From Haloferax sp. Q22 (GTDB lineage: Archaea > Halobacteriota > Halobacteria > Halobacteriales > Haloferacaceae): DNA of 64,000 nt. Position 1 is the first letter of the stretch. Each line of letters opens with the position of its first letter. Below are positions 6-13,198 of this stretch, one piece after another. A model generated the notes under the pieces. It did not search any database and was not told the origin of the DNA. It saw only the letters and a program-made list of their open reading frames with translations. Location: the NCBI RefSeq assembly GCF_001482285.1, contig NZ_LOEP01000032.1, forward strand, positions 162,141 to 226,140, read 5' to 3'. The position numbers were made by a program, and so were the translations under genes.

Positions 6-2591
6 ATGACAGAAAACAAACAAGTTCGCGCGGTTCTGCTCGCTGCGCTGATGGTTTTCTCGGTCTTCGCCGGGTCCATCGCGTTTACGGGCACTGCCGC
101 CGCAGCGGCTACGTCTCCCAATGTCACTACGACATCGGTTGACAAGGGTCCTTCTGCGACCGTCGACGTTGATGTTACTGACAACACCAGCTCGGACGGT
201 CCTGGGCTTTACGCATGGATCGACGTAAACGGAGACGGTTATTACAACGCATCTGAACCGTCTGCGGACGACACTAGCTACACCAACGGAACGACCGTCA
301 GCATTACTGGCATTCCGGTATACTCCAACATCTCTGCTGGAACCTACAACGTTGCAGTCGTTGAGACCGGTTCCTTCGGCGTGGGCACTCAAGAGGAAGC
401 CCACGACACTGTTGACATCAACACCGCCAACCCTGCTGACTTCGGCTCCGCCATCCACTACGACGACGGTACGCCGAAGGTCGAAGTTGCCTTCGACGAA
501 GACGTCTCGGTCGTCGAGATGAACGTCACCGACGGCGAGACGAACCTCTCGCAGTCCGCGTCCGTCTCCGGCGGACAGGTCAACGTCACCCTCAGTCAGG
601 TCTACACCGAGGACCTCGAAGTCACGTACAACGTGACCGACTCCTCCGGTAACGCGGCCACCGGCACCGAGGACGTTACCTTCGCGCCCGTCTACGTCGC
701 GAACAACTCCAACAACACGGCCTACCAGGGCTCCACCGTCGCGGTCGTCGCGGGTGCGACGAACACCGACGTCGAAGTGGAGGGCACCGACGACGACAAC
801 AGCTACCAGTTCTCCGGTTCCACCGGCGAGAACAGTCAGGTCTTCCTCTTCGAAACCGAAGGTAAGACCCTCGACACCTACGAGTTCACCATCGGCGGTG
901 CGCAGCAGGCCCAGGTTGCCGTTCGCGACCTCGGCTTCGAGCTCACCGTTGACGACCTGAACATCACGACCGATGACGGCATCGAAGGCACCGTCTCGGC
1001 CAACGCGGGCGGCCGCACCGTCGACGTCGTCGCACTCGACGACAACGGTGACGAGGTCGACGGCACCGAGACGACCGTCACGCTCAACGGGCAGGGTGAA
1101 GCCGACTTCAACCTGAGCTCGGTCGAAACTGGCGAGTACACGGTCGAAGCGACCGACGCGTTCTCGGGCGTCACGCTTGAGTCCGACACGGTCACCGTCT
1201 CGAAGGCCAAGGACTCCTCGGGTGACTTCACGTCGTCCGTCATCAGCGAACAGGTCGGCGACGTTGCCGAAATCACCGTCATGCTCGACGGCACCGACGA
1301 CGCGGAGATTCAGATCGGTGCGAACGAGCTCGGTTACAGCGCCAACGTCTCTGTCACCGACGACAACAACGACGGCGAGGTCGTGCTCCTGTTCAACACC
1401 TACGCGCCGAGCAAGACCTCCTCGTTCGACGTTGACGACAGCGACGACGAGTACACGGTTCAGGATATCTCGACCGATATCTCCGGCAGCGACACCCTCG
1501 ACGCCGGCGACTACGACCTCGAAGTCTCCACCGGCGGCGACGCGGACAACGTCGCGACGCTCGTCCTCGAAGAGCGCAGCACCGAGAGTGTCTCCACCTG
1601 GACGGCACCCACGGGTGCTGACATCACCGAGACCGAAGATGTCTACGACGCAATTGAGAACGAGAACCTGACGCAGACGGACTCGCTGGCGAACGGCGAC
1701 GTCGTCGTCACGCAGGTCACCGCGACGGGCCTCGAAGGCGCGTTCGACGCGTCGAACTTCGACGCCCTCTCGGGCACGCAGTTCAACCTCACGGTCGAGC
1801 AGACGAACCCCGGTCCGAACCGCGACGCGAAGGTCCTTGGTATCAACAGCTCGAGCGCCACGATCATCGCTGACGGTGCCAACGACACGTACTTCATCGT
1901 CTACGACCTCGACGACATCTCTGCTTCGCGCACGGACTACTACGACAACACCTCGACGCTCTACGAAGTCGAGGACGACGACGCGTTCAACGCGACGTTC
2001 ACCGTCCTCGAAGACGGTGACCTCGCCGAAGACGACGAGTCGGCCTCCGACGAGTTCGAAGTCGTCGAACCCGAACTTGAACTCGACCAGGACGAGTTCG
2101 CAGTCTCCAACGCCGCCGAGCAGTCCATCTCGGGCACGGCCACTGTCGCCCCCGGAACGGAACTCACCATCCGCGTGAAGTCCGACGGCGACACCCAGCC
2201 GCGCTTCCTGAAGACGGCTTCGGTGTACGTACAGGCTGACGGTACGTTCTCCTCCGCGTTCGACTTCTCGGAGCAGAACGTCAACGACACGTTCGAAGTG
2301 ACGGTTTCGGTTGACTCCGGCACGGCCGCTGACGCGACCGCTGACGGCATCGTCGGCGAAGCCATGGAGACGACCACGGCCGCGGAGACGACCACGACCG
2401 AGGAATCCACGGAAACGACCACCACGGAAGCGTCGACCGAGGAGTCCACGGAAACGGCAACCGCGACCGAAGAGCCGACTGAGGAAGCCACCGAGGAGAC
2501 CACCGAGTCCAGCACGCCTGGCTTCGGCGTCGTTGTCGCCCTCGTCGCGCTCGTCGCCGCTGCGCTCCTCGCAGTCCGCCGCGACAACTAA
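6..2591 (+). CDS. csg: S-layer glycoprotein with PGF-CTERM anchor
   Basis: Main cell-surface lattice protein (861 aa). It begins with a Sec signal peptide of about 34 residues ending in an Ala-rich cleavage region. A long acidic, beta-rich ectodomain follows, with many N-glycosylation sequons (for example NVT, NTS, NAS, NGT and NIS in the first 120 residues). A Thr/Glu-rich spacer of about 60 residues, typical of O-glycosylated cell-wall-spanning stalks, precedes the PGF motif, one transmembrane helix and a short basic tail (RRDN). PGF-CTERM proteins are processed and lipid-anchored by archaeosortase A, whose gene is next downstream. The first ~420 nt use more A/T in third positions than the rest, suggesting a recombinant 5' part. 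The promoter lies outside the window. Family assignment is firm; exact lattice role is inferred. Confidence 0.93.
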   Translation: MTENKQVRAVLLAALMVFSVFAGSIAFTGTAAAAATSPNVTTTSVDKGPSATVDVDVTDNTSSDGPGLYAWIDVNGDGYYNASEPSADDTSYTNGTTVSITGIPVYSNISAGTYNVAVVETGSFGVGTQEEAHDTVDINTANPADFGSAIHYDDGTPKVEVAFDEDVSVVEMNVTDGETNLSQSASVSGGQVNVTLSQVYTEDLEVTYNVTDSSGNAATGTEDVTFAPVYVANNSNNTAYQGSTVAVVAGATNTDVEVEGTDDDNSYQFSGSTGENSQVFLFETEGKTLDTYEFTIGGAQQAQVAVRDLGFELTVDDLNITTDDGIEGTVSANAGGRTVDVVALDDNGDEVDGTETTVTLNGQGEADFNLSSVETGEYTVEATDAFSGVTLESDTVTVSKAKDSSGDFTSSVISEQVGDVAEITVMLDGTDDAEIQIGANELGYSANVSVTDDNNDGEVVLLFNTYAPSKTSSFDVDDSDDEYTVQDISTDISGSDTLDAGDYDLEVSTGGDADNVATLVLEERSTESVSTWTAPTGADITETEDVYDAIENENLTQTDSLANGDVVVTQVTATGLEGAFDASNFDALSGTQFNLTVEQTNPGPNRDAKVLGINSSSATIIADGANDTYFIVYDLDDISASRTDYYDNTSTLYEVEDDDAFNATFTVLEDGDLAEDDESASDEFEVVEPELELDQDEFAVSNAAEQSISGTATVAPGTELTIRVKSDGDTQPRFLKTASVYVQADGTFSSAFDFSEQNVNDTFEVTVSVDSGTAADATADGIVGEAMETTTAAETTTTEESTETTTTEASTEESTETATATEEPTEEATEETTESSTPGFGVVVALVALVAAALLAVRRDN

Positions 2592-2607
2592 CGACCGCTA
2601 ATCCACT

Positions 2608-2645
2608 ACCGGGGTTCTCCCGGTCCCCTCAACACTTCTTTATCG
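2608..2645 (+). terminator. Candidate terminator after csg
   Basis: Directly after the S-layer stop codon there is a 6-bp perfect stem (ACCGGG / CCCGGT, 2608-2613 and 2619-2624) with a 5-nt loop, followed by a pyrimidine-rich stretch with short T runs. It would suit transcript ending for a very highly expressed gene. Prediction only. Confidence 0.45.
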
Positions 2646-2752
2646 ACTGCCTACACAGCGGCGGCGCTGTGCGGTCGGCTCGTCCGGACGGTCGGACGGC
2701 CCCCGTGCCCGGAACGACAAGGGATTTATTCGCTCCACCGCATCAAACACGT

Positions 2753-3673
2753 ATGCCCGGTCTCCTCTCCGACATCCTCGCGTGGGTGGTTATCGGAACC
2801 TTCGTCGCCGGCGCGGTCGTCAACGGACGGAACCGCGACCTCGGGCGGCGGGTGATGTCCGCAGCGTGGGTGTTGTTTGCGGTCTTCTGGCTCCAACTCA
2901 TCCCGCATTTCACGCTCGTTCACAAGAGCTACATCGAGGGTCTGTTGACCATCGCCGCCGTCCCGGCGTCGCTTTACGCCGGGTGGCTCCTCTACAACGG
3001 CCGCGACACGCTGTTCGTCCTCTCGCGGGCCGTCGCCGCCATGGGTGTGGTCTACCTCCCCTTCGAGACGATTCCCGCGCTGACGCTGTTCGGGACGACG
3101 ATCCCTGCTCCCCGCGGCATTCTCATGGAGTCCGTCGCGGCGCAGACGCGCTTCCTCATCGAATCGCTCGGGTACACGCCGCAGATGATTCCCGGCGACG
3201 AGGGCTACCTGAACACGTTCCTGTGGATGCGGGGCTCTCACCGAATCGAAATCTCGGTCGTTCTCGCCTGTACCGGCCTCGGGAGCATCGCCATCTTCGC
3301 CGGCCTCATCGCCGCCGTCGACGCCCCGATGCGCCGGAAACTCCGCGGGCTCGCCATCGCCGTCCCCATCATCTACGCGCTGAACCTGCTTCGGACGACG
3401 TTCATCACCATCTCGGTCGGCAAGCAGTACTTCCAACTGTTCGTCGACGAAGTGCTGTTCCTCTTCGGCTCGTCGGACCCCTACATGGTGTCGTTCTTCA
3501 TCTCCGACCGCATCATCAGCCAGGCGCTCGCGGTCGTCGCGCTCGTCGGCATCACGTATCTCGTCGTACAGGAGGTGCCGGAACTCCTCACCGTCATCGA
3601 GGACGTGCTCTACATGGTGACCGGCGAGGAGTACGACCTCAGAAGCGAGTTAGGGCTCGACGGGCGAGCGTAG
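2753..3673 (+). CDS. artA: Archaeosortase A
   Basis: Membrane transpeptidase-like enzyme (306 aa) that cleaves the PGF-CTERM signal and links the protein to archaetidyl lipid. About seven or eight hydrophobic segments are visible. The ACTGLGS motif places the catalytic Cys at residue 173, the conserved Arg of NLLRTTF at 214 and the Arg of SDRIIS at 253; these are the residues and numbering I recall for Haloferax volcanii ArtA. The start at 2753 was preferred over an in-frame ATG at 2669 because the extra 28 residues look untranslated and a TATA-like element (gatttatt, about 2723) lies close upstream. It sits 160 bp from its likely main substrate gene. Confidence 0.95.
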   Translation: MPGLLSDILAWVVIGTFVAGAVVNGRNRDLGRRVMSAAWVLFAVFWLQLIPHFTLVHKSYIEGLLTIAAVPASLYAGWLLYNGRDTLFVLSRAVAAMGVVYLPFETIPALTLFGTTIPAPRGILMESVAAQTRFLIESLGYTPQMIPGDEGYLNTFLWMRGSHRIEISVVLACTGLGSIAIFAGLIAAVDAPMRRKLRGLAIAVPIIYALNLLRTTFITISVGKQYFQLFVDEVLFLFGSSDPYMVSFFISDRIISQALAVVALVGITYLVVQEVPELLTVIEDVLYMVTGEEYDLRSELGLDGRA

Positions 3674-6290: not shown

Positions 6291-6550
6291 CTACTGGTCA
6301 GCGCCGTCCTCGTCGAGAACCCCGTGGTACGGGCAAACGAACTCGTCGCGGATGAGCTGTGCGTCGACGCGTGGTGAGACACGAGAGGGGTGGTGAGGAT
6401 GAAGAACGAGTTTCGGCGGAAGCGTGGTACTCCACACGTCAATGAGCATCCCGTCGAACACGCTGTAAAACCCGAACCGGAGACCTTCGTCTCCGGGGTT
6501 GAGTTGTGGGATGGTGAAGGAACCAGTAGAAGCCGGTGGAGGGGATTGTG
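6291..6550 (-). pseudogene. Truncated C-terminal reading frame next to the integration site
   Basis: On the minus strand an open frame of about 80 codons ends at a TAG (6291-6293). It reads ...TGSFTIPQLNPGDEGLRF and finishes DAQLIRDEFVCPYHGVLDED plus three residues. Codon choice is GC3-rich and chromosome-like. There is no start codon: the frame is closed by a TGA just inside the att-like sequence near 6550. It therefore looks like the 3' remnant of a gene whose front was lost when something integrated or excised here. I do not recognise the family, and a chance open frame is possible. Confidence 0.35.
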
Positions 6551-6600
6551 AACCTCACTTGCAACGCTCCGCGTTGCTCGCTGGCTCAAATCCCTCCACG
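6532..6600. repeat. att-like repeat forming a large inverted repeat with internal hairpin
   Basis: 6532-6556 resembles the tRNA-Thr 3' end (gccggtggagg, then a diverged T-arm). 6588-6599 (aaatccctccac) is the same tRNA segment in the opposite orientation, pairing with 6536-6547 with one bulge. Between them is a perfect 7-bp stem GCAACGC-TCC-GCGTTGC (6561-6577). This may be an old attachment-site scar or a cruciform-forming element. Confidence 0.45.
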
Positions 6601-6636
6601 CGAGGCTCTTCAATCGTACTGTGTTCGGTAGAAAGA

Positions 6637-6648
6637 GCCGGTGGAGGG
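6637..6648 (+). repeat. Left attachment repeat
   Basis: Twelve bases identical to the acceptor/T-arm end of tRNA-Thr (13127-13138). The integrase start codon follows 53 bp later. Confidence 0.6.
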
Positions 6649-6701
6649 CTTACAGAATAAGGGTTCAAAACCTATTAGGTGGTGGCGCGTGAGTGTGAAC
6701 T

Positions 6702-7922
6702 ATGCCGATCACCGACTTCGGGAGACAGTTGGCGAACACTGTGGAGAACATCGAGGAATCCGACGAGATTCTCGACCGGAACAAGGAGCTAATTCTCGAC
6801 TACAAACAGGATCAAGTGCTCAACGGACTGAGCGAAGCGACGCTCCTCCGGAACACCCAGCGGCTCAAGATCGTTGCTCAGGAGGTCGAGAAACCGTTTG
6901 ATGAAATGGACAAGTCAGACGTCAAAGCCGTGATTGTGTGGCTTCACAACCGCGATTACACGGACGAGACGGTCGACACCTACAAGACGGTCATCAAAAC
7001 CTTCTGGGGCTGGTTGAAAGACGCCGGAAAGGACGAAACGCCGGAAGAGGTCAAATGGATTCAATTGACCAACGGGAACGGGAACGGCGACACACTCCCG
7101 AAGGACCTCCTCACGAAAGACGAGATCGAAGCCCAAGTTGACGCCGCGAAGAATCCACGAGACAAGGCGCTTATCTATATGCTGTATGAGACGGGCGCAC
7201 GGATCGGCGAATTGATCGACCTCACCGTGGGCGACATCGAGGATCGAAAACACGGCAAGAAGGTAGTGATCGACGGCAAGACCGGGGCGCGACGGCTCCC
7301 CCTCGTCGAGTCGGTTCCGCATATCAACAACTGGCTCAACAAGCACCCGAACCCGGAGAAGGGCGCGCCGCTGTGGTGTAAGATCCAACAGGGAAGCGGC
7401 GACGACCAACTCGGCTACCGATACATCCGTGAGAAGATTCTGCAAAAGAATATGGAACGCGCTGGGATCGACAAGCCGTCGAACCCACACCACTACCGAC
7501 ACTCTCGGGCGTCACACCTCGCCACTGAGTTGAAAGAGGCTCAACTGTGTGAATGGTTCGGCTGGGTCCAAGGCTCGGACGTCCCGGCGCGCTACGTCCA
7601 CCTAAGCGGCCGTGACATCGACAACGCCTACGACCAAATGCACGGGTTGTATGAACCCGACGAGGACGAAGACACCCCATCAGTTGTCGAGTGCTGGCGC
7701 TGTGAGGAGTTGAACGAACCCAACGCCAGATACTGTGGTCGGTGTGGAGCACCGCTTGACGATGATGCACAGTCCTTCAACGAACAGGTTGAGGAGGATA
7801 TTACGGCTGATTACCGGGAGACTGATCCAGAGGACATCGATACGCTGGAGGCAATCGATACGATTAACGAACTGATCCAGCGGCCGGATGTCAAGGCGAT
7901 ACTTGATCGGGATGAGAGCTAA
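6702..7922 (+). CDS. Tyrosine recombinase (integrase) with C-terminal zinc ribbon
   Basis: 406 aa. An N-terminal SAM-like core-binding domain (about residues 20-125) is followed by the catalytic domain. The first catalytic Arg is in ETGARIGEL (residue 167), the H-x-x-R box in HHYRHSRASH (about 262-271), and the nucleophilic Tyr most likely in ARYVHLSGRD (about 297). After the catalytic domain there is a CxxC-x11-CxxC zinc ribbon (CWRCEEL...YCGRCGAP, about 330-348) and an acidic tail, an arrangement known from haloarchaeal SNJ2-type integrases. All catalytic positions look intact. The stop overlaps the convergent neighbour's stop by 3 nt. It should catalyse recombination between the tRNA-Thr repeats. 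Confidence 0.9.
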   Translation: MPITDFGRQLANTVENIEESDEILDRNKELILDYKQDQVLNGLSEATLLRNTQRLKIVAQEVEKPFDEMDKSDVKAVIVWLHNRDYTDETVDTYKTVIKTFWGWLKDAGKDETPEEVKWIQLTNGNGNGDTLPKDLLTKDEIEAQVDAAKNPRDKALIYMLYETGARIGELIDLTVGDIEDRKHGKKVVIDGKTGARRLPLVESVPHINNWLNKHPNPEKGAPLWCKIQQGSGDDQLGYRYIREKILQKNMERAGIDKPSNPHHYRHSRASHLATELKEAQLCEWFGWVQGSDVPARYVHLSGRDIDNAYDQMHGLYEPDEDEDTPSVVECWRCEELNEPNARYCGRCGAPLDDDAQSFNEQVEEDITADYRETDPEDIDTLEAIDTINELIQRPDVKAILDRDES

Positions 7923-8536
7923 TCATCGTCGGGTTCATACGATCCCCTGTCCCGTCCAAAAAGCGGTTCACGGTTCTCTTCTTCCCAGATAAGCTCGGCT
8001 ACGTCTACGTCACTCTCTGCAAGAGTCTGCAACACGGCTTGCATTTCAGGAATCCGCAAGCCATCCACGTCGTCGGGGGTAACTCTAGCGAGAGCACTAT
8101 CCACGATCACATTACCGTGCGCCGGCCGCTCCACATTGAACGTAACCCGAACGTGACGGTTATTCATATGCCGTTCAGCAAGCGTCACACCGTGCTCCAA
8201 ATATCGATCGAAAGGGGGCATATAGTCGTTGAACAGTCCCCGGTACAATACATAGAACATACCTCTTGCCCCGTCTCTCGTCCTGTGATGATCCATATTC
8301 TCTTCTGTGAAGAGTTTGTCTAGATTGAGTTCTTCCCAGTTGTCGGAGTGACGCCCGCCAAGTAGCGCAAAGTCGTAGATTGCCCATCGGAGTCGGTCGC
8401 GTATCCGAGAATACATTTGCCACCTCGCTTGATCTGACATCTTGAATTCTTCCTCCCCCGAGAGGTATTTCCGCTGTTTACTCGTTAGTACCGCGTTTGG
8501 TCCTTCTTGGCTCTCACTGTCCTCACCTGATTCCAT
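7919..8536 (-). CDS. Uncharacterised element protein
   Basis: 205 aa when started at the ATG at 8536. An in-frame ATG at 8611 lies beyond the divergent promoter and was rejected. A recognisable block, SKQRKYLSGEEEFK, precedes an aromatic and basic helix region ending RWAIYDFALL, like genes seen on haloarchaeal plasmids and proviruses near integrases. No catalytic motif, membrane segment or signal peptide is visible. It shares a short, symmetric promoter with the 51-aa gene on the other strand and is convergent with the integrase, a position often held by element regulators. I cannot assign a function. Confidence 0.75.
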   Translation of the reverse strand: MESGEDSESQEGPNAVLTSKQRKYLSGEEEFKMSDQARWQMYSRIRDRLRWAIYDFALLGGRHSDNWEELNLDKLFTEENMDHHRTRDGARGMFYVLYRGLFNDYMPPFDRYLEHGVTLAERHMNNRHVRVTFNVERPAHGNVIVDSALARVTPDDVDGLRIPEMQAVLQTLAESDVDVAELIWEEENREPLFGRDRGSYEPDDD

Positions 8537-8580
8537 AGCATCAGGATACTCTGAGCCTGATCTTATAATGTTTTTGAATG
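8526..8580. promoter_or_regulatory. Shared bidirectional TATA with phased CCTGA/TCAGG operators
   Basis: The near-palindrome cttataatg (8562-8570) reads as a TATA box in both directions, 33 nt before the rightward ATG (8599) and 30 nt before the leftward ATG (8536), so both transcripts would be almost leaderless. Next to it CCTGA (8526-8530), TCAGG (8541-8545) and CCTGA (8556-8560) recur every 15 bp in alternating orientation. This is a likely operator array for the adjacent ribbon-helix-helix-like protein; that link is inferred. Confidence 0.5.
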
Positions 8581-8598
8581 CCTGCGAATATACATAGA

Positions 8599-8754
8599 AT
8601 GTCAACGACAACCGATCGGACGACGGTGACGGTGCCCGTCGAACTGCATCGCCGTGTGTTCGGCGAGGACGGTATGAAACCGTATGACACGATGTCTAAT
8701 GCGGAGTTCATCGAAGAAATGGCAGACACCTACGAGAGGGTGCAAGGGTTATGA
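8599..8754 (+). CDS. Small ribbon-helix-helix-like DNA-binding protein
   Basis: 51 aa. The start MSTTTDRTTVTVPVELHRRV looks like a ribbon-helix-helix beta strand (alternating Thr/Val) followed by helix A. The rest (SNAEFIEEMADTYERV) could be helix B. Such proteins act as dimeric repressors and are common in haloarchaeal plasmids. Its stop overlaps the next start (TTATGATGG), implying co-translation. It probably controls the shared promoter directly upstream. Confidence 0.6.
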   Translation: MSTTTDRTTVTVPVELHRRVFGEDGMKPYDTMSNAEFIEEMADTYERVQGL

Positions 8755-8867: not shown

Positions 8868-8974
8868 GCGCGGTGTACCGAAAGCAAACGGGCGCTGGGT
8901 ACGCTCGCGACGGCGGAGCCTGTCATAGTGGCGGCTCTCAGAATACTCCCGTCGGCGCGCCGTGGCGCGGGGCC

Positions 8975-10288
8975 GTGAGGGAGGACGACAAGACGCGGTT
9001 ATTCAAATACGTTCGTTCGACCCGCGAGGGCGTCCCTCTGGCGAAGATCGTTCGGGACGTGTTCGGGACCGACGCCGACGCGGGCGGGGCTGAGTACCAA
9101 CTGGCGCGGCGATTCTTCGACCGTCACCCTGAATTTTTCAATACCGACCGCAGAGGCGACCTCTTGTGGGTAGAGCCACGGATCGGGATATTCACGCGGC
9201 TTAACTTGAGACAGCAGTATGCGAATGGCAAAACCACTGGACGGGAGGGAGTCGAGACGACCGCCACCGAACCGACGGACGAATTCGAGGGGAGCGACGA
9301 CGGGGCCACCGGCAGACCTGAGCACACGGATGACGGGCCGATGTACGCAAAAGCCCGGACGCGGTCGTTCTTGAGTAATTATCTTCAGATTGGGGCTGAC
9401 TCCGTCCGGCGGTCCCTGTTCGCGCAACTCGTCAAGGACGTCGAAGGGACGGCGGGCAAGTGGCAGATATTCGAGCGCGTCCGTGGCAAGGGGGACGACT
9501 ACCTCTGCCTGCCGTATCGGACCCGTCACAACGACGGCAGGCGGGCACGGGACGTCCGCGGAGGGTTCGAGGACGCACTAGGGCTGGCGGCGGGGCGGCA
9601 CACAGAGGCGGTCGTCCTGACGGTCACAACGGACCCGAAAGAACACGACAGCCTCACGGACGCTCTGGCGTCTCTGTCGACGAACAAGGGGCGGCTAATG
9701 TCGTGGCTATCGACGGAATATCAGCTCGGGTATCGACCGGAGAACCTGTCGGTCCTACAGTTTACGGAGTCGGGCCTGCCGCACTATCACATCGTTCTGT
9801 TCGGCGTTTCGTGGGCCGTCTCACAGGAACAGTTAGCGGAGATGTGGCGGTCATACGGACAAGGGTACGTCGTCGACGCGCGGACGGCGCGGAATCCACA
9901 CGACGGGGACTCGTGGCTACTCCACGACGACGAGCAGGGGCGGGTGTCTCTGTCGTGGTATCTCGGAAAGGCGATACGGGAGCTGGTCGACGTGGCGGAG
10001 TCGACGCCGGCGGACCTCCGCGACCGGATCAGGGACGGGGACGTATCGGCGTGGCGGCAGACGTTGTACTGGGCGACAGAGCGGCAGTACTACACTTGTA
10101 GTCCGTCACTGAAGCGGTCCACGGCGGACGACGACCTGCCACACGTTCCGGTATGGGAGTTCGTCGGGACGGCGGAGTACGCGGACCTCCCGGCACACGT
10201 CCGTCGGCAGGCGACGTTTGCGGATCGACCGCCACCGGCGACGGCATCGACGTCCTCAATCACGACGGCAGGGGCGACAGCTGACTAG
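8975..10288 (+). CDS. HUH-type replication initiator (Rep)
   Basis: 437 aa from the GTG at 8975. An upstream in-frame GTG at 8873 would add 34 residues of low-complexity Gly-rich sequence and is less likely. A putative winged-helix segment (RLFKYVRSTREGVPLAKIVR) lies at the N-terminus. The HUH motif is at residues 270-272 in SGLPHYHIVLFG, and the candidate nucleophile is one of the two tyrosines at 372-373 in ERQYYTCSPSL. This combination is typical of rolling-circle Rep proteins of haloarchaeal plasmids and pleolipoviruses. It suggests the element can replicate after excision. No double-strand origin could be located by eye. Confidence 0.75.
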   Translation: MREDDKTRLFKYVRSTREGVPLAKIVRDVFGTDADAGGAEYQLARRFFDRHPEFFNTDRRGDLLWVEPRIGIFTRLNLRQQYANGKTTGREGVETTATEPTDEFEGSDDGATGRPEHTDDGPMYAKARTRSFLSNYLQIGADSVRRSLFAQLVKDVEGTAGKWQIFERVRGKGDDYLCLPYRTRHNDGRRARDVRGGFEDALGLAAGRHTEAVVLTVTTDPKEHDSLTDALASLSTNKGRLMSWLSTEYQLGYRPENLSVLQFTESGLPHYHIVLFGVSWAVSQEQLAEMWRSYGQGYVVDARTARNPHDGDSWLLHDDEQGRVSLSWYLGKAIRELVDVAESTPADLRDRIRDGDVSAWRQTLYWATERQYYTCSPSLKRSTADDDLPHVPVWEFVGTAEYADLPAHVRRQATFADRPPPATASTSSITTAGATAD

Positions 10289-10334: not shown

Positions 10335-10406
10335 ATGCAACACCGGACTAACGACGGCGGAAACGGGGAGTTCGACGGTTCGAACCCCGGGGGTATGGGC
10401 CGATGA
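10335..10406 (+). CDS. Possible 23-aa leader peptide
   Basis: Reads MQHRTNDGGNGEFDGSNPGG and ends in a TGA that overlaps the next ATG (ATGA). It is Gly/Asn-rich with no domain. The overlap matches the pattern of all the following genes, so it may be the first cistron of the overlapping run or simply a leader that loads ribosomes. Confidence 0.35.
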   Translation: MQHRTNDGGNGEFDGSNPGGMGR

Positions 10407-10690
10407 GTACTGACGCGAGCGCGGGCGCGGCGGACGACGCTGGCGACGGGAACGACCGGAGCGATTACGCGGAGATGATCGACGATCTCGACGCGGCGAT
10501 CTCCGAAGCGCGGAAGAAGGTAGAGTCGGGGCGGGTGTACGACGCGGAGAACGAGCGCGTCCGGCAGGGGTGGATTCGCGTCCTCGCCTACGCGACAAAT
10601 GTACGTCGGCAGGTGACGACCGACCGCGACCTTGAGGAGCTAGCAGAGCGGATCGACGAGCTCGAAGACGCACAGGAGGGCGACCGATGA
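10403..10690 (+). CDS. Small coiled-coil protein of the element
   Basis: 95 aa, strongly charged. A Ser/Ala/Asp-rich first 20 residues is followed by two predicted helices: YAEMIDDLDAAISEARKKVE and, after an aromatic turn (QGWIRVLAYATNVRRQ), a Leu/Glu heptad segment ending EELAERIDELEDAQ. It probably forms an oligomeric helical hairpin. It overlaps its neighbours on both sides by ATGA, so it belongs to the translationally coupled run. Function unknown. Confidence 0.65.
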   Translation: MSTDASAGAADDAGDGNDRSDYAEMIDDLDAAISEARKKVESGRVYDAENERVRQGWIRVLAYATNVRRQVTTDRDLEELAERIDELEDAQEGDR

Positions 10691-10908
10691 CCCGAAAGAG
10701 TAAACGCGAACTGGAGCGGGCGGTTGAGGCCCTCGGCGACGACAGCGACACCGAACCCTCAGCGATCGTAGCGTTTGAACTGGAGGACGGTACATACGTC
10801 GACGAGGACGGCGATCCGATCGACCGCCCGGGCGAGGTGGTATTCACCCTCCCGGATGACGTCTGGAGTCGGTGGACCGATCCGCCTGTCTCGGTCCAAA
10901 ATCTATGA
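10687..10908 (+). CDS. Array paralogue 1 (MTRKSKRE family)
   Basis: 73 aa. The N-terminus MTRKSKRELERAVEALGDD is the block shared by the five genes of this array: a basic patch (RKSKRE) entering an amphipathic helix. Its variable C-terminal part is acidic and beta-rich (AIVAFELEDGTYVDEDGDP). It starts inside the previous stop and ends inside the next start. The basic N-terminus suggests binding to nucleic acid or to a common partner, with the C-terminus providing specificity; this is inference. Confidence 0.65.
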   Translation: MTRKSKRELERAVEALGDDSDTEPSAIVAFELEDGTYVDEDGDPIDRPGEVVFTLPDDVWSRWTDPPVSVQNL

Positions 10909-11120
10909 CCCGAAAATCCAAACGTGAACTAGAGCGTGCGCTCGACCAACTCTACCCCGACGCCGCTGACGGACCAACGGAGATTGTGATACAAGACTAC
11001 GTGGTTCCGACGGACTGGGGCGACGATCCCGACGCCGAGAAGCGGCTTGAATCCCGGACGCGGCTCACTCGGGACGCCGTCGGCAAGTGGCATACCGAAC
11101 GGGAGGACGTCGACGAATGA
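10905..11120 (+). CDS. Array paralogue 2 (MTRKSKRE family)
   Basis: 71 aa. The first 12 residues (MTRKSKRELERA) are identical to paralogue 1; the rest differs (DQLYPDAADGPTEIVIQDYV, then a charged helix around RLTRDAVGKW). Near-identical coding for the shared block implies duplication of the whole cistron. ATGA overlaps exist at both ends. The start at 10905 was chosen over an upstream in-frame ATG at 10872 because the shared block begins exactly here. Confidence 0.65.
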   Translation: MTRKSKRELERALDQLYPDAADGPTEIVIQDYVVPTDWGDDPDAEKRLESRTRLTRDAVGKWHTEREDVDE

Positions 11121-11233
11121 CGCGACCCTCGAAGCGTGAAGTGGAGCGGGCGATTGAGGAGTTAGAGGACGAAGGGGCGGAAGCGACGGTGTCGCTCACC
11201 GACCTCCTCCTCGACGACAGAGGTGACAAATGA
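11117..11233 (+). CDS. Array paralogue 3, minimal form
   Basis: 38 aa, the shortest member. MTRPSKREVERAIEELEDEG is followed by a short Val/Leu/Asp tail (SLTDLLLDDRGDK). It consists almost only of the shared N-terminal helix, which suggests that this helix alone is a functional unit. It starts in the stop of paralogue 2 and ends in the start of paralogue 4. Confidence 0.6.
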   Translation: MTRPSKREVERAIEELEDEGAEATVSLTDLLLDDRGDK

Positions 11234-11382
11234 CCCGGCGCTCGAAGCGTGCGATTGAGCGCGCTATCGGCGACCTTGACGCGGACGATGGTCCCGACGC
11301 CGACCGGGTTATGATCCTCCGGCGGATCGTCGACGCCGAAGGGCGACCGATCGGAATACAAGAGAAGATGATCGACCTGTGA
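11230..11382 (+). CDS. Array paralogue 4
   Basis: 50 aa. MTRRSKRAIERAIGDLDADD, then ADRVMILRRIVDAEGRPIGI, a beta-hairpin-like end. Shared block and ATGA overlap as in its neighbours. Codon use is GC-rich here, unlike the AT-rich lipoprotein genes downstream. Confidence 0.6.
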   Translation: MTRRSKRAIERAIGDLDADDGPDADRVMILRRIVDAEGRPIGIQEKMIDL

Positions 11383-11579
11383 TCCGCCGAAGTCGCCGGG
11401 AGATCGCCCGCGTCGTCGAAAAGCTGGAATGGGATACACACACCGACGCCGACGGGTTCAACCCGGATCCACTCACAATTGAAGAAAAGCGGGCGCTTGC
11501 GGACGTATTCGACACGAATCCGTGGAACGGGACGGACACCGAGGCGGTGGATGTCCTCACTGCAATTCACAGGAGCTAA
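11379..11579 (+). CDS. Array paralogue 5, GTG start
   Basis: 66 aa. It starts with GTG inside the preceding TGA (GTGA): MIRRSRREIARVVEKLEWDT, followed by a longer C-terminal helix pair (LTIEEKRALADVFDTNPWNG). It is the most diverged copy of the shared block and the last gene of the run. An intergenic space of about 110 bp follows before the lipoprotein gene. Confidence 0.6.
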   Translation: MIRRSRREIARVVEKLEWDTHTDADGFNPDPLTIEEKRALADVFDTNPWNGTDTEAVDVLTAIHRS

Positions 11580-11693: not shown

Positions 11694-12452
11694 ATGCGAC
11701 GAAGAGCATATACAGCAGCTACAATATCCTTACTTTTCGGGACGTCCGGCTGTCTAGCAACAGATGGGTCTAGACAAACAGGTGAACCGAATGCTACGGA
11801 AACAACATCGGCCGAAAATGAAAGTGGCACCGGTATGACTGAGGTCAAAACCACCGCTCAGACACCTCCTGAGCCAATTGAAACGGTCTTTCAGGGGAGT
11901 GGATCGGTATTAAAAGAGTTTCAAACCGAACGTGAGGGACCGGTGCTATTCGATATTGAGCTTGAGGACTCCTCGGGAGTCGAGATAGTTGTAATAAATG
12001 AGGAGGGTGAAAGAGAAACAACCCTACAACGACCAGGAGGCAGAAGGGACTGGACAAGTGCGGAGTTGCTCCGTGATATTGAACCCGGAAACTACGCTCT
12101 CGACGTTAGCTCAGACAGTGCTTGGAGCGTTGAGATGGATCAATATCCGGTTTTAGAACAATCTACTGTTGACCCGCCAGAATTACCATTAGAATTCGAT
12201 GGGGATTCTCCTGCTGTATTTGGCCCGTACTATCTCGAAGGATTCTACAGTGTGACGAGTCTCTCTGAGGAACTTATGGCCGTTCAATTTCATAACGCAA
12301 GCGGCGAACAGTTGGAAAGCCTCAGACATAGTAGCAGATTCACGGCTGAGGGGGAAGAGGTAGAGCACGATCCGATTAACATAGAAGGCGTTTGTTGGAT
12401 TAGTTGCGTAGGAATTGAAGATTATAGTGTGACTGTTGAGGGGGCTAACTAA
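11694..12452 (+). CDS. Lipoprotein with Tat-like signal, AT-rich
   Basis: 252 aa. The signal MRRRAYTAATISLLFGTSGC carries twin Arg and a lipobox with Cys20, so the protein should be exported and lipid-anchored. A Thr/Glu/Asn-rich linker (residues 21-55) precedes a beta-rich ectodomain starting around FQGSGSVLKEFQTERE, with sequence resembling haloarchaeal pre-peptidase-like or binding domains; no catalytic motif was seen. Its codons are clearly richer in A/T than the rest of the window, a sign of different origin. A TATA-like aacatttaga (11659-11668) lies upstream. It faces the other lipoprotein gene convergently. Confidence 0.75.
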   Translation: MRRRAYTAATISLLFGTSGCLATDGSRQTGEPNATETTSAENESGTGMTEVKTTAQTPPEPIETVFQGSGSVLKEFQTEREGPVLFDIELEDSSGVEIVVINEEGERETTLQRPGGRRDWTSAELLRDIEPGNYALDVSSDSAWSVEMDQYPVLEQSTVDPPELPLEFDGDSPAVFGPYYLEGFYSVTSLSEELMAVQFHNASGEQLESLRHSSRFTAEGEEVEHDPINIEGVCWISCVGIEDYSVTVEGAN

Positions 12453-13117: not shown

Positions 13118-13126
13118 TTTAGGCAA

Positions 13127-13198
13127 GCCGGTGGAGGGATTTGAACCCTCGGCCTATTCCTTACGAAGGAATCGCTCTGCCAGCTGAGCTACACCGGC
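13127..13198 (-). tRNA. tRNA-Thr (CGU)
   Basis: Full 72-nt cloverleaf on the minus strand: acceptor GCCGGTG / CACCGGC, D-arm GCTC...GAGC, anticodon stem ATTCC / GGAAT around loop TTCGTAA (anticodon CGT, positions 13163-13165), T-arm GAGGG-TTCAAAT-CCCTC. It reads the Thr codon ACG. No CCA is encoded and no intron is seen. A TATA-like taatta (about 13240) lies upstream. Its 3' end is the integration target of the element. Confidence 0.95.

Follow-up and report, generated by a model that had tools for sequence, protein, structure and literature searches.

The genome of Haloferax sp. Q22 carries, inside a small integrated element, five short tandem genes whose products begin with one kind of basic helix and continue in different ways. 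The question raised by this locus is what such a set of proteins, sharing a head and differing in the rest, might do. We analysed the whole stretch of 64,000 nucleotides around it (the window), and all coordinates are counted from its first letter. The genes, here called A to E, form an operon with a preceding gene for a 95-residue protein, p95, as follows.

10403-10690, forward strand: p95, 95 aa, proposed small-terminase (TerS)-like core on which the array proteins would dock; family found in 41 of 392 sampled genomes of the order, with docking-helix ORFs or the terminase large subunit (TerL) behind it; predicted helical hairpin.
10687-10908, forward strand: array gene A, 73 aa; docking helix (about residues 1-18) and a C-terminal part in common with gene 1 of locus L037.
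10905-11120, forward strand: array gene B, 71 aa; docking helix and a TerS-tail-like segment.
11117-11233, forward strand: array gene C, 38 aa; docking helix and a 20-aa tail.
11230-11382, forward strand: array gene D, 50 aa; docking helix and the tail RVMILRRIVDAEGRPIG, weakly like the second TerS-tail class, not significant by profile.
11379-11579, forward strand: array gene E, 66 aa, GTG start; most divergent docking helix.

The N-termini read MTRKSKRELER in both A and B, MTRPSKREVER in C, MTRRSKRAIER in D and MIRRSRREIAR in E. They are paralogous and invariant at M1, R3, S5, R7, R11 and L16. At the DNA level, the stretches of 43 nt that encode the N-termini of A to D are 67-77% identical and make up a repeat family, and 4-nt overlaps (four ATGA, one GTGA) were found at all five junctions, including that of p95 with A. 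These observations bear out the description in the earlier note of five tandem, overlapping paralogues with a common N-terminal helix, including coordinates, starts and all five overlaps. The likeness of the N-termini that it described is close among A to D, with E as the most divergent copy. Its statement that the C-terminal parts differ completely holds within the window, but several of these parts recur in the arrays of other elements, that of A in gene 1 of L037 and that of B in gene 1 of L135. GC content by codon position in the p95 and array genes was ∼0.70/0.43/0.71, a contrast missing from the reverse-strand ORFs. This is the genuine codon use of haloarchaeal coding DNA and not that of random frames. 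No matches to A to E were obtained in Pfam or PHROGs.

The array lies inside an integrated element of ∼6.5 kb at a tRNA-Thr gene, extending from attL at 6636-6651 to attR at 13126-13141. Its other features are listed below.

6636-6651, no strand assigned: attL, copy of the tRNA-Thr 3' end (AGCCGGTGGAGGGCTT), 15/16 identity with 13126-13141.
6702-7922, forward strand: tyrosine integrase with a C-terminal zinc ribbon (Pfam Phage_integrase 8e-17; phrog_1 6e-27).
8873-10288, forward strand: HUH-type rolling-circle Rep, kin to ORF1 of Halorubrum pleomorphic virus 1 (tblastn 3e-24, 26% identity over 88%).
11694-12452, forward strand: lipoprotein-like cargo ORF in the element, GC3 0.40, without a Pfam match.
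13126-13198, reverse strand: tRNA-Thr(CGT), the integration target, with attR at 13126-13141; empty sites in L274 and L275.

In the congener L275, window positions 6471-6651 are joined straight to 13126 onward, as expected of an empty site, and the congener L274 is also without the element at this tRNA-Thr gene. The site is an insertion hot spot of the genus, empty in two genomes, whereas in others ∼4 to 45 kb separates the shared flanking genes (G001, G003, G006 and G014 were compared). The element contains the integrase, Rep, p95, A to E and lipoprotein-like ORFs. An ORF of 230 aa (7919-8611, reverse strand), convergent with the integrase, gave a weak match to a PHROG family without a function (8e-4). 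In the proteins scanned with Pfam and PHROG, no virion gene was recognised for the element and no capsid or portal for the window. A pleolipovirus spike, small membrane protein and NTPase likewise had no family match in the scanned element proteins; searches of phage records used Rep and p95.

We then sought relatives of the array in other genomes, on which the reading of the locus in the earlier note had been made to depend. The module, a p95 homologue followed by one to six array genes, was found in plasmids as well as in integrated elements across Halobacteria, with six array genes in L131, four in L132 and three in L037, and also on plasmids of Halalkalicoccus jeotgali and Natronococcus occultus. 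Array N-termini gave matches in 40 of the 392 sampled genomes, the weakest of these matches being due to chance. Under a strict automatic rule, a docking-helix ORF followed 18 of 35 p95 genes, compared with 8 of 2520 random stop codons; of 45 junctions, 30 were exactly -4. The array is therefore more than a product of chance, since unrelated genomes hold homologous operons that keep the -4 overlaps and the frequencies behind p95 genes and behind random stop codons are so different. At divergent p95 loci inspected by eye, many of the following ORFs also start with a short [KR]-rich amphipathic helix, and an IMG/VR contig holds an element with a related Rep, an integrase, p95 and a docking protein. 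Relatives of p95 followed by a docking-type ORF were also seen in a Methanonatronarchaeales MAG and, more distant, in a short contig that was assigned to Spirochaetaceae by binning but may be misbinned archaeal DNA (L121, L123). Array matches inside several ORFs of 590-600 aa (G371, G296) belonged to a thioredoxin-domain-like protein and were discarded as chance.

The p95 gene often lies after a gene for Rep, a primase or Orc1/Cdc6, and the Rep of the window is 41% identical to the Rep adjoining p95 in L124. These replication proteins are mutually unrelated (HUH Rep, primase-like, Orc1/Cdc6), and the module is therefore independent of the replicon. Our first guess, that it travels with a Rep of the window type, was ruled out, since the closest relatives of this Rep in other genomes are without the array.

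Analysis of the genes next to p95 showed a connection with DNA packaging. Ten distinct p95 loci had a TerL, recognised by Pfam Terminase_6N and the PHROG terminase large subunit; it lies directly 3' of p95 in most of them, and the array was absent there; none of the array loci fetched contained TerL. The first 20 residues of the TerL beside p95 are the array helix (MTNPTKREIERLLEEL, MSKPTRRELERQLAEL, MTDPTKREIERELEAL and others), and at eight of the TerL loci the helix is carried by TerL alone among the genes. Exchange between TerL and the array required ∼4 changes on the p95 tree, which is weakly resolved. A profile built only from array N-termini placed eight TerLs, seven of them adjoining p95, above all 546 background ORFs, and its top 30 matches included none of six canonical haloviral TerLs. 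According to a review (PMC9611059), TerL of phage P22 contacts TerS through its first 23 residues. The simplest reading of these sequences is that the helix would be a TerL-type plug for p95. Directly after the stand-alone terminase cassette of L125 (Orc1/Cdc6, p95, TerL) we observed an ORF of 363 aa (2507-3598, reverse strand) that by eye is like CRISPR-type RAMP proteins and had no convincing Pfam or PHROG match.

The p95 protein itself was examined for likeness to TerS. The predicted structure is a hairpin of two helices, H18-42 and H48-94 (pLDDT 81), with residues 1-17 unstructured and of low pLDDT. The hairpin resembles many unrelated hairpins in PDB and BFVD, indicating a generic fold only. 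There was no convincing match of p95 to known TerS in Pfam or PHROG, a profile comparison with one TerS group gave no signal (probability 0.4%), and the two predicted helices leave p95 with no N-terminal helix-turn-helix or other recognised DNA-binding domain. Searches with tblastn found five plasmid records and no phage record. Filing p95 as a TerS was rejected, because homology to TerS is not detectable and the usual DNA-binding domain is missing; our claim is that p95 may work like a TerS core. It was found as the gene next to TerL in sister loci only, the ten p95 loci with TerL. A Cys/His motif of the type found at the N-terminus of haloviral TerS is fused to p95 in L068, and is a separate small protein beside p95 in L158 (9200-9382, reverse strand) and L124 (3076-3261).

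We next asked how the C-terminal parts of the array proteins relate to TerS, using as a sample the TerS genes upstream of TerL from 56 IMG/VR loci, genomes and named viruses. The bodies of haloviral TerS are very unlike one another, but their last 20-30 residues can be sorted into a small number of classes, one example being GGGPVEVEFHEEVVETPWNPDEDTE. Across 48 viral pairs, the similarity of TerL was correlated with that of the tail with a Spearman rho of 0.62 and with that of the body with a rho of 0.36 (Mantel null 0 +/- 0.05). Tails also remained alike (0.62 against 0.22) in 44 pairs whose TerLs were similar but whose TerS bodies were not. The tail is therefore taken to be the TerL-pairing part of TerS, because TerL similarity tracks it in preference to the body, even after the body has been swapped. 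TerL is bound by the C-termini of TerS in lambda and P22. Three loci, L146, L195 and L196, have identical TerS tails and near-identical TerL, with a body in L195 that differs from that of L146 and L196, and represent natural domain swaps.

A profile of 24 viral tails of the first class was then searched against 620 proteins, namely 74 array proteins and 546 viral ORFs. Three true TerS ranked first, followed by six array proteins with E values of 1.6e-4 to 0.7, and the next viral ORF had an E value of 2.1. None of 300 shuffles that preserved composition reached the scores of the array proteins. The idea arose from reading the sequences, and the tail classes were sorted by eye and pattern before profiles were made; the shuffles and background ORFs are therefore a safeguard and not a blind test. 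The segment matched in the window is the following.

10971-11027, forward strand: TerS-tail-like segment of B, residues 23-41, GPTEIVIQDYVVPTDWGDD; E 0.019 with the HMM of 24 viral TerS tails, 52% identity over 21 residues with the C-terminus of the viral TerS of L181.

In B, 30 more residues come after this segment; in array proteins of L072 and L073 the tail is at the very end. When array C-termini were compared by BLAST with six halovirus genomes, the top match was that of an array protein with the last 15 residues of BJ1 TerS (73% identical), and three array proteins, including B, aligned with this C-terminus. A reverse profile made from one class of six array C-termini had TerS as all of its best six matches, a result driven by its two tail-bearing members. 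A second class of TerS tails (..HHRV..) scored marginally above shuffles from the virus side; it was set aside as evidence, since it was not reproduced by the profile from the array side. Profile searches gave no convincing viral counterpart for the other recurrent classes of array C-termini, and concatenated array C-termini found nothing in phages by tblastn, a method that is insensitive to short tails. Within the window, a predicted TerL-pairing C-terminal tail is firmly assigned to B alone, where the match is convincing; the likeness in D is weak, and the C-terminal parts of A, C and E were assigned to no tail class.

Taken together, the sequence evidence covers the operon and how widely it occurs, the exchange of TerL and array beside p95, the presence of the helix in TerL, and a TerS tail in B and in other arrays. 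From these comparisons, we think it probable, on balance, that the element is satellite-like, makes no capsid and is packaged by helper tailed viruses, with p95 acting as a TerS-like core and A to E as adaptors to the TerLs of helpers. Here p95 would stand in for the core of the small terminase, oligomerising and marking the element's own DNA. The common N-terminal helix of A to E would mimic the N-terminus of TerL and dock on p95, and the C-terminal parts would mimic the viral TerS tails that call TerL, such that the p95 complex could recruit the TerL of a helper. An adaptor would thus be seen by p95 as TerL and by the helper's TerL as TerS, and adaptors in tandem may serve several helpers, or touch one motor at several points. 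Rolling-circle replication by Rep could yield concatemers, as reported for the similarly sized PICMI satellites. TerL is absent from the window, and a TerL of the sampled family was not found in the window's own genome, hence no helper was identified there. The suggestion that several proteins dock on one partner is supported as regards the common helix and the exchangeable C-terminal parts, but the likely partner is p95 and not Rep or a DNA site. More tentatively, a TerS may have been split into a constant core and an array of interchangeable adaptors, each a TerL-like plug with a different TerS-like key, in a form of packaging piracy widespread in archaea.

The mimicry of a tail suits a decoy as well as it suits a recruiter. 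An element that is not packaged could use p95 and the adaptors for defence or superinfection exclusion, with TerS-tail peptides occupying an incoming TerL and blocking packaging, and many different tails would cover many viruses. The role in defence or counter-defence considered in the earlier note survives only in this form, which we regard as unlikely. It leaves unexplained why a helix-bearing TerL takes the place of the array beside p95, and why sister elements carry tape-measure genes and Rep, and a free tail peptide would not require a docking helix. The evidence otherwise points to packaging, and packaging of the element, not blockage, would be the outcome.

Tape-measure genes were found in sister elements with arrays (L131, L134, L144) and with TerL (L158, L249), with best PHROG E values of 7e-8 to 4e-55; no capsid or portal was recognised among selected larger ORFs of stretches of 6-20 kb. 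Together with TerL at some p95 loci, these genes would suit decayed or minimal proviruses, with p95 and the array proteins as normal structural or accessory components of a lineage of tailed viruses that has its capsid genes at another place or has lost them, and the stretch inspected per locus was just 6-20 kb. We nevertheless consider this quite improbable. Several array operons were located on small plasmids, complete at 7-18 kb, whose annotation lists no virion genes, and decay is argued against because open frames and exact overlaps are kept in many species. Copy control of the element, considered in the earlier note, or maintenance of the replicon would require p95 and the small helix proteins to work together with the initiator of replication. 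This would suit the frequent position of p95 3' of genes for Rep, primase or Orc1/Cdc6 but is highly improbable, since these initiators are unrelated, the closest Rep relatives elsewhere have no arrays, and the constant features, a helix that is the TerL N-terminus in sister loci and tails of which some are those of TerS, point to the packaging of virus DNA.

The satellite-like reading can be compared with known systems. As in PICI-like satellites, an integrase, att sites and a replication gene occur together in a small element. SaPI TerS with Ppi, and the Rpp of Gram-negative PICIs, are alike in that proteins of a small integrated element act at TerS/TerL for its own packaging; Rpp binds the helper TerS and alters its DNA specificity (PMC6739421). 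SaPIs and PICIs rely on a single protein, either a whole TerS or a TerS-binding protein, whereas a separate core and tandem adaptors, TerL-like at the head and TerS-like at the tail, are predicted here (Rpp and SaPI TerS were compared by family scans only). PICMI satellites of Vibrionaceae are also elements of ∼6 kb with an integrase and a replication gene and without capsid remodelling, and are packaged as concatemers (PMC10803314); they differ in being bacterial and in that no terS or other packaging-redirecting homologue was reported in PICMI115. Haloviral TerS (BJ1 ORF48, HRTV-28 gp02, Humcor1 HrrHm1_005) resemble the array proteins through the extreme C-terminal tails of BJ1 type, and several have a Cys/His N-terminus similar to that of the p95 relative in L068. 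They combine a DNA-binding domain, core and tail in one protein, unlike p95, which has no recognised DNA-binding domain and no tail. Halorubrum pleomorphic virus 1 (Alphapleolipovirus) has a related rolling-circle Rep, but no spike, NTPase or other virion gene of a pleolipovirus was recognised in the element, and p95 is unmatched in phage records. Virus satellites of haloarchaea are reportedly, going by its title, the subject of a paper by Zhou et al. (2025) in Nat Microbiol; with the text of that paper outside the comparison, no description of the p95-array module was found in the literature.

Bacterial satellites are known to pirate terminase, and the cases that we are aware of all use one fixed protein. 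If the present reading is true, several unrelated tailed viruses could each package one small element, whose range of helpers would be altered by the gain or loss of one short gene. The co-variation of TerS tail and TerL makes the specificity of TerS-TerL pairing in archaeal viruses directly testable. A modular key ring of this kind would explain the spread of small archaeal plasmids without transfer genes, would give a function to many hypothetical small proteins in about a tenth of the order's sampled genomes, and would provide a readable code that leads from a plasmid to its possible helper viruses.
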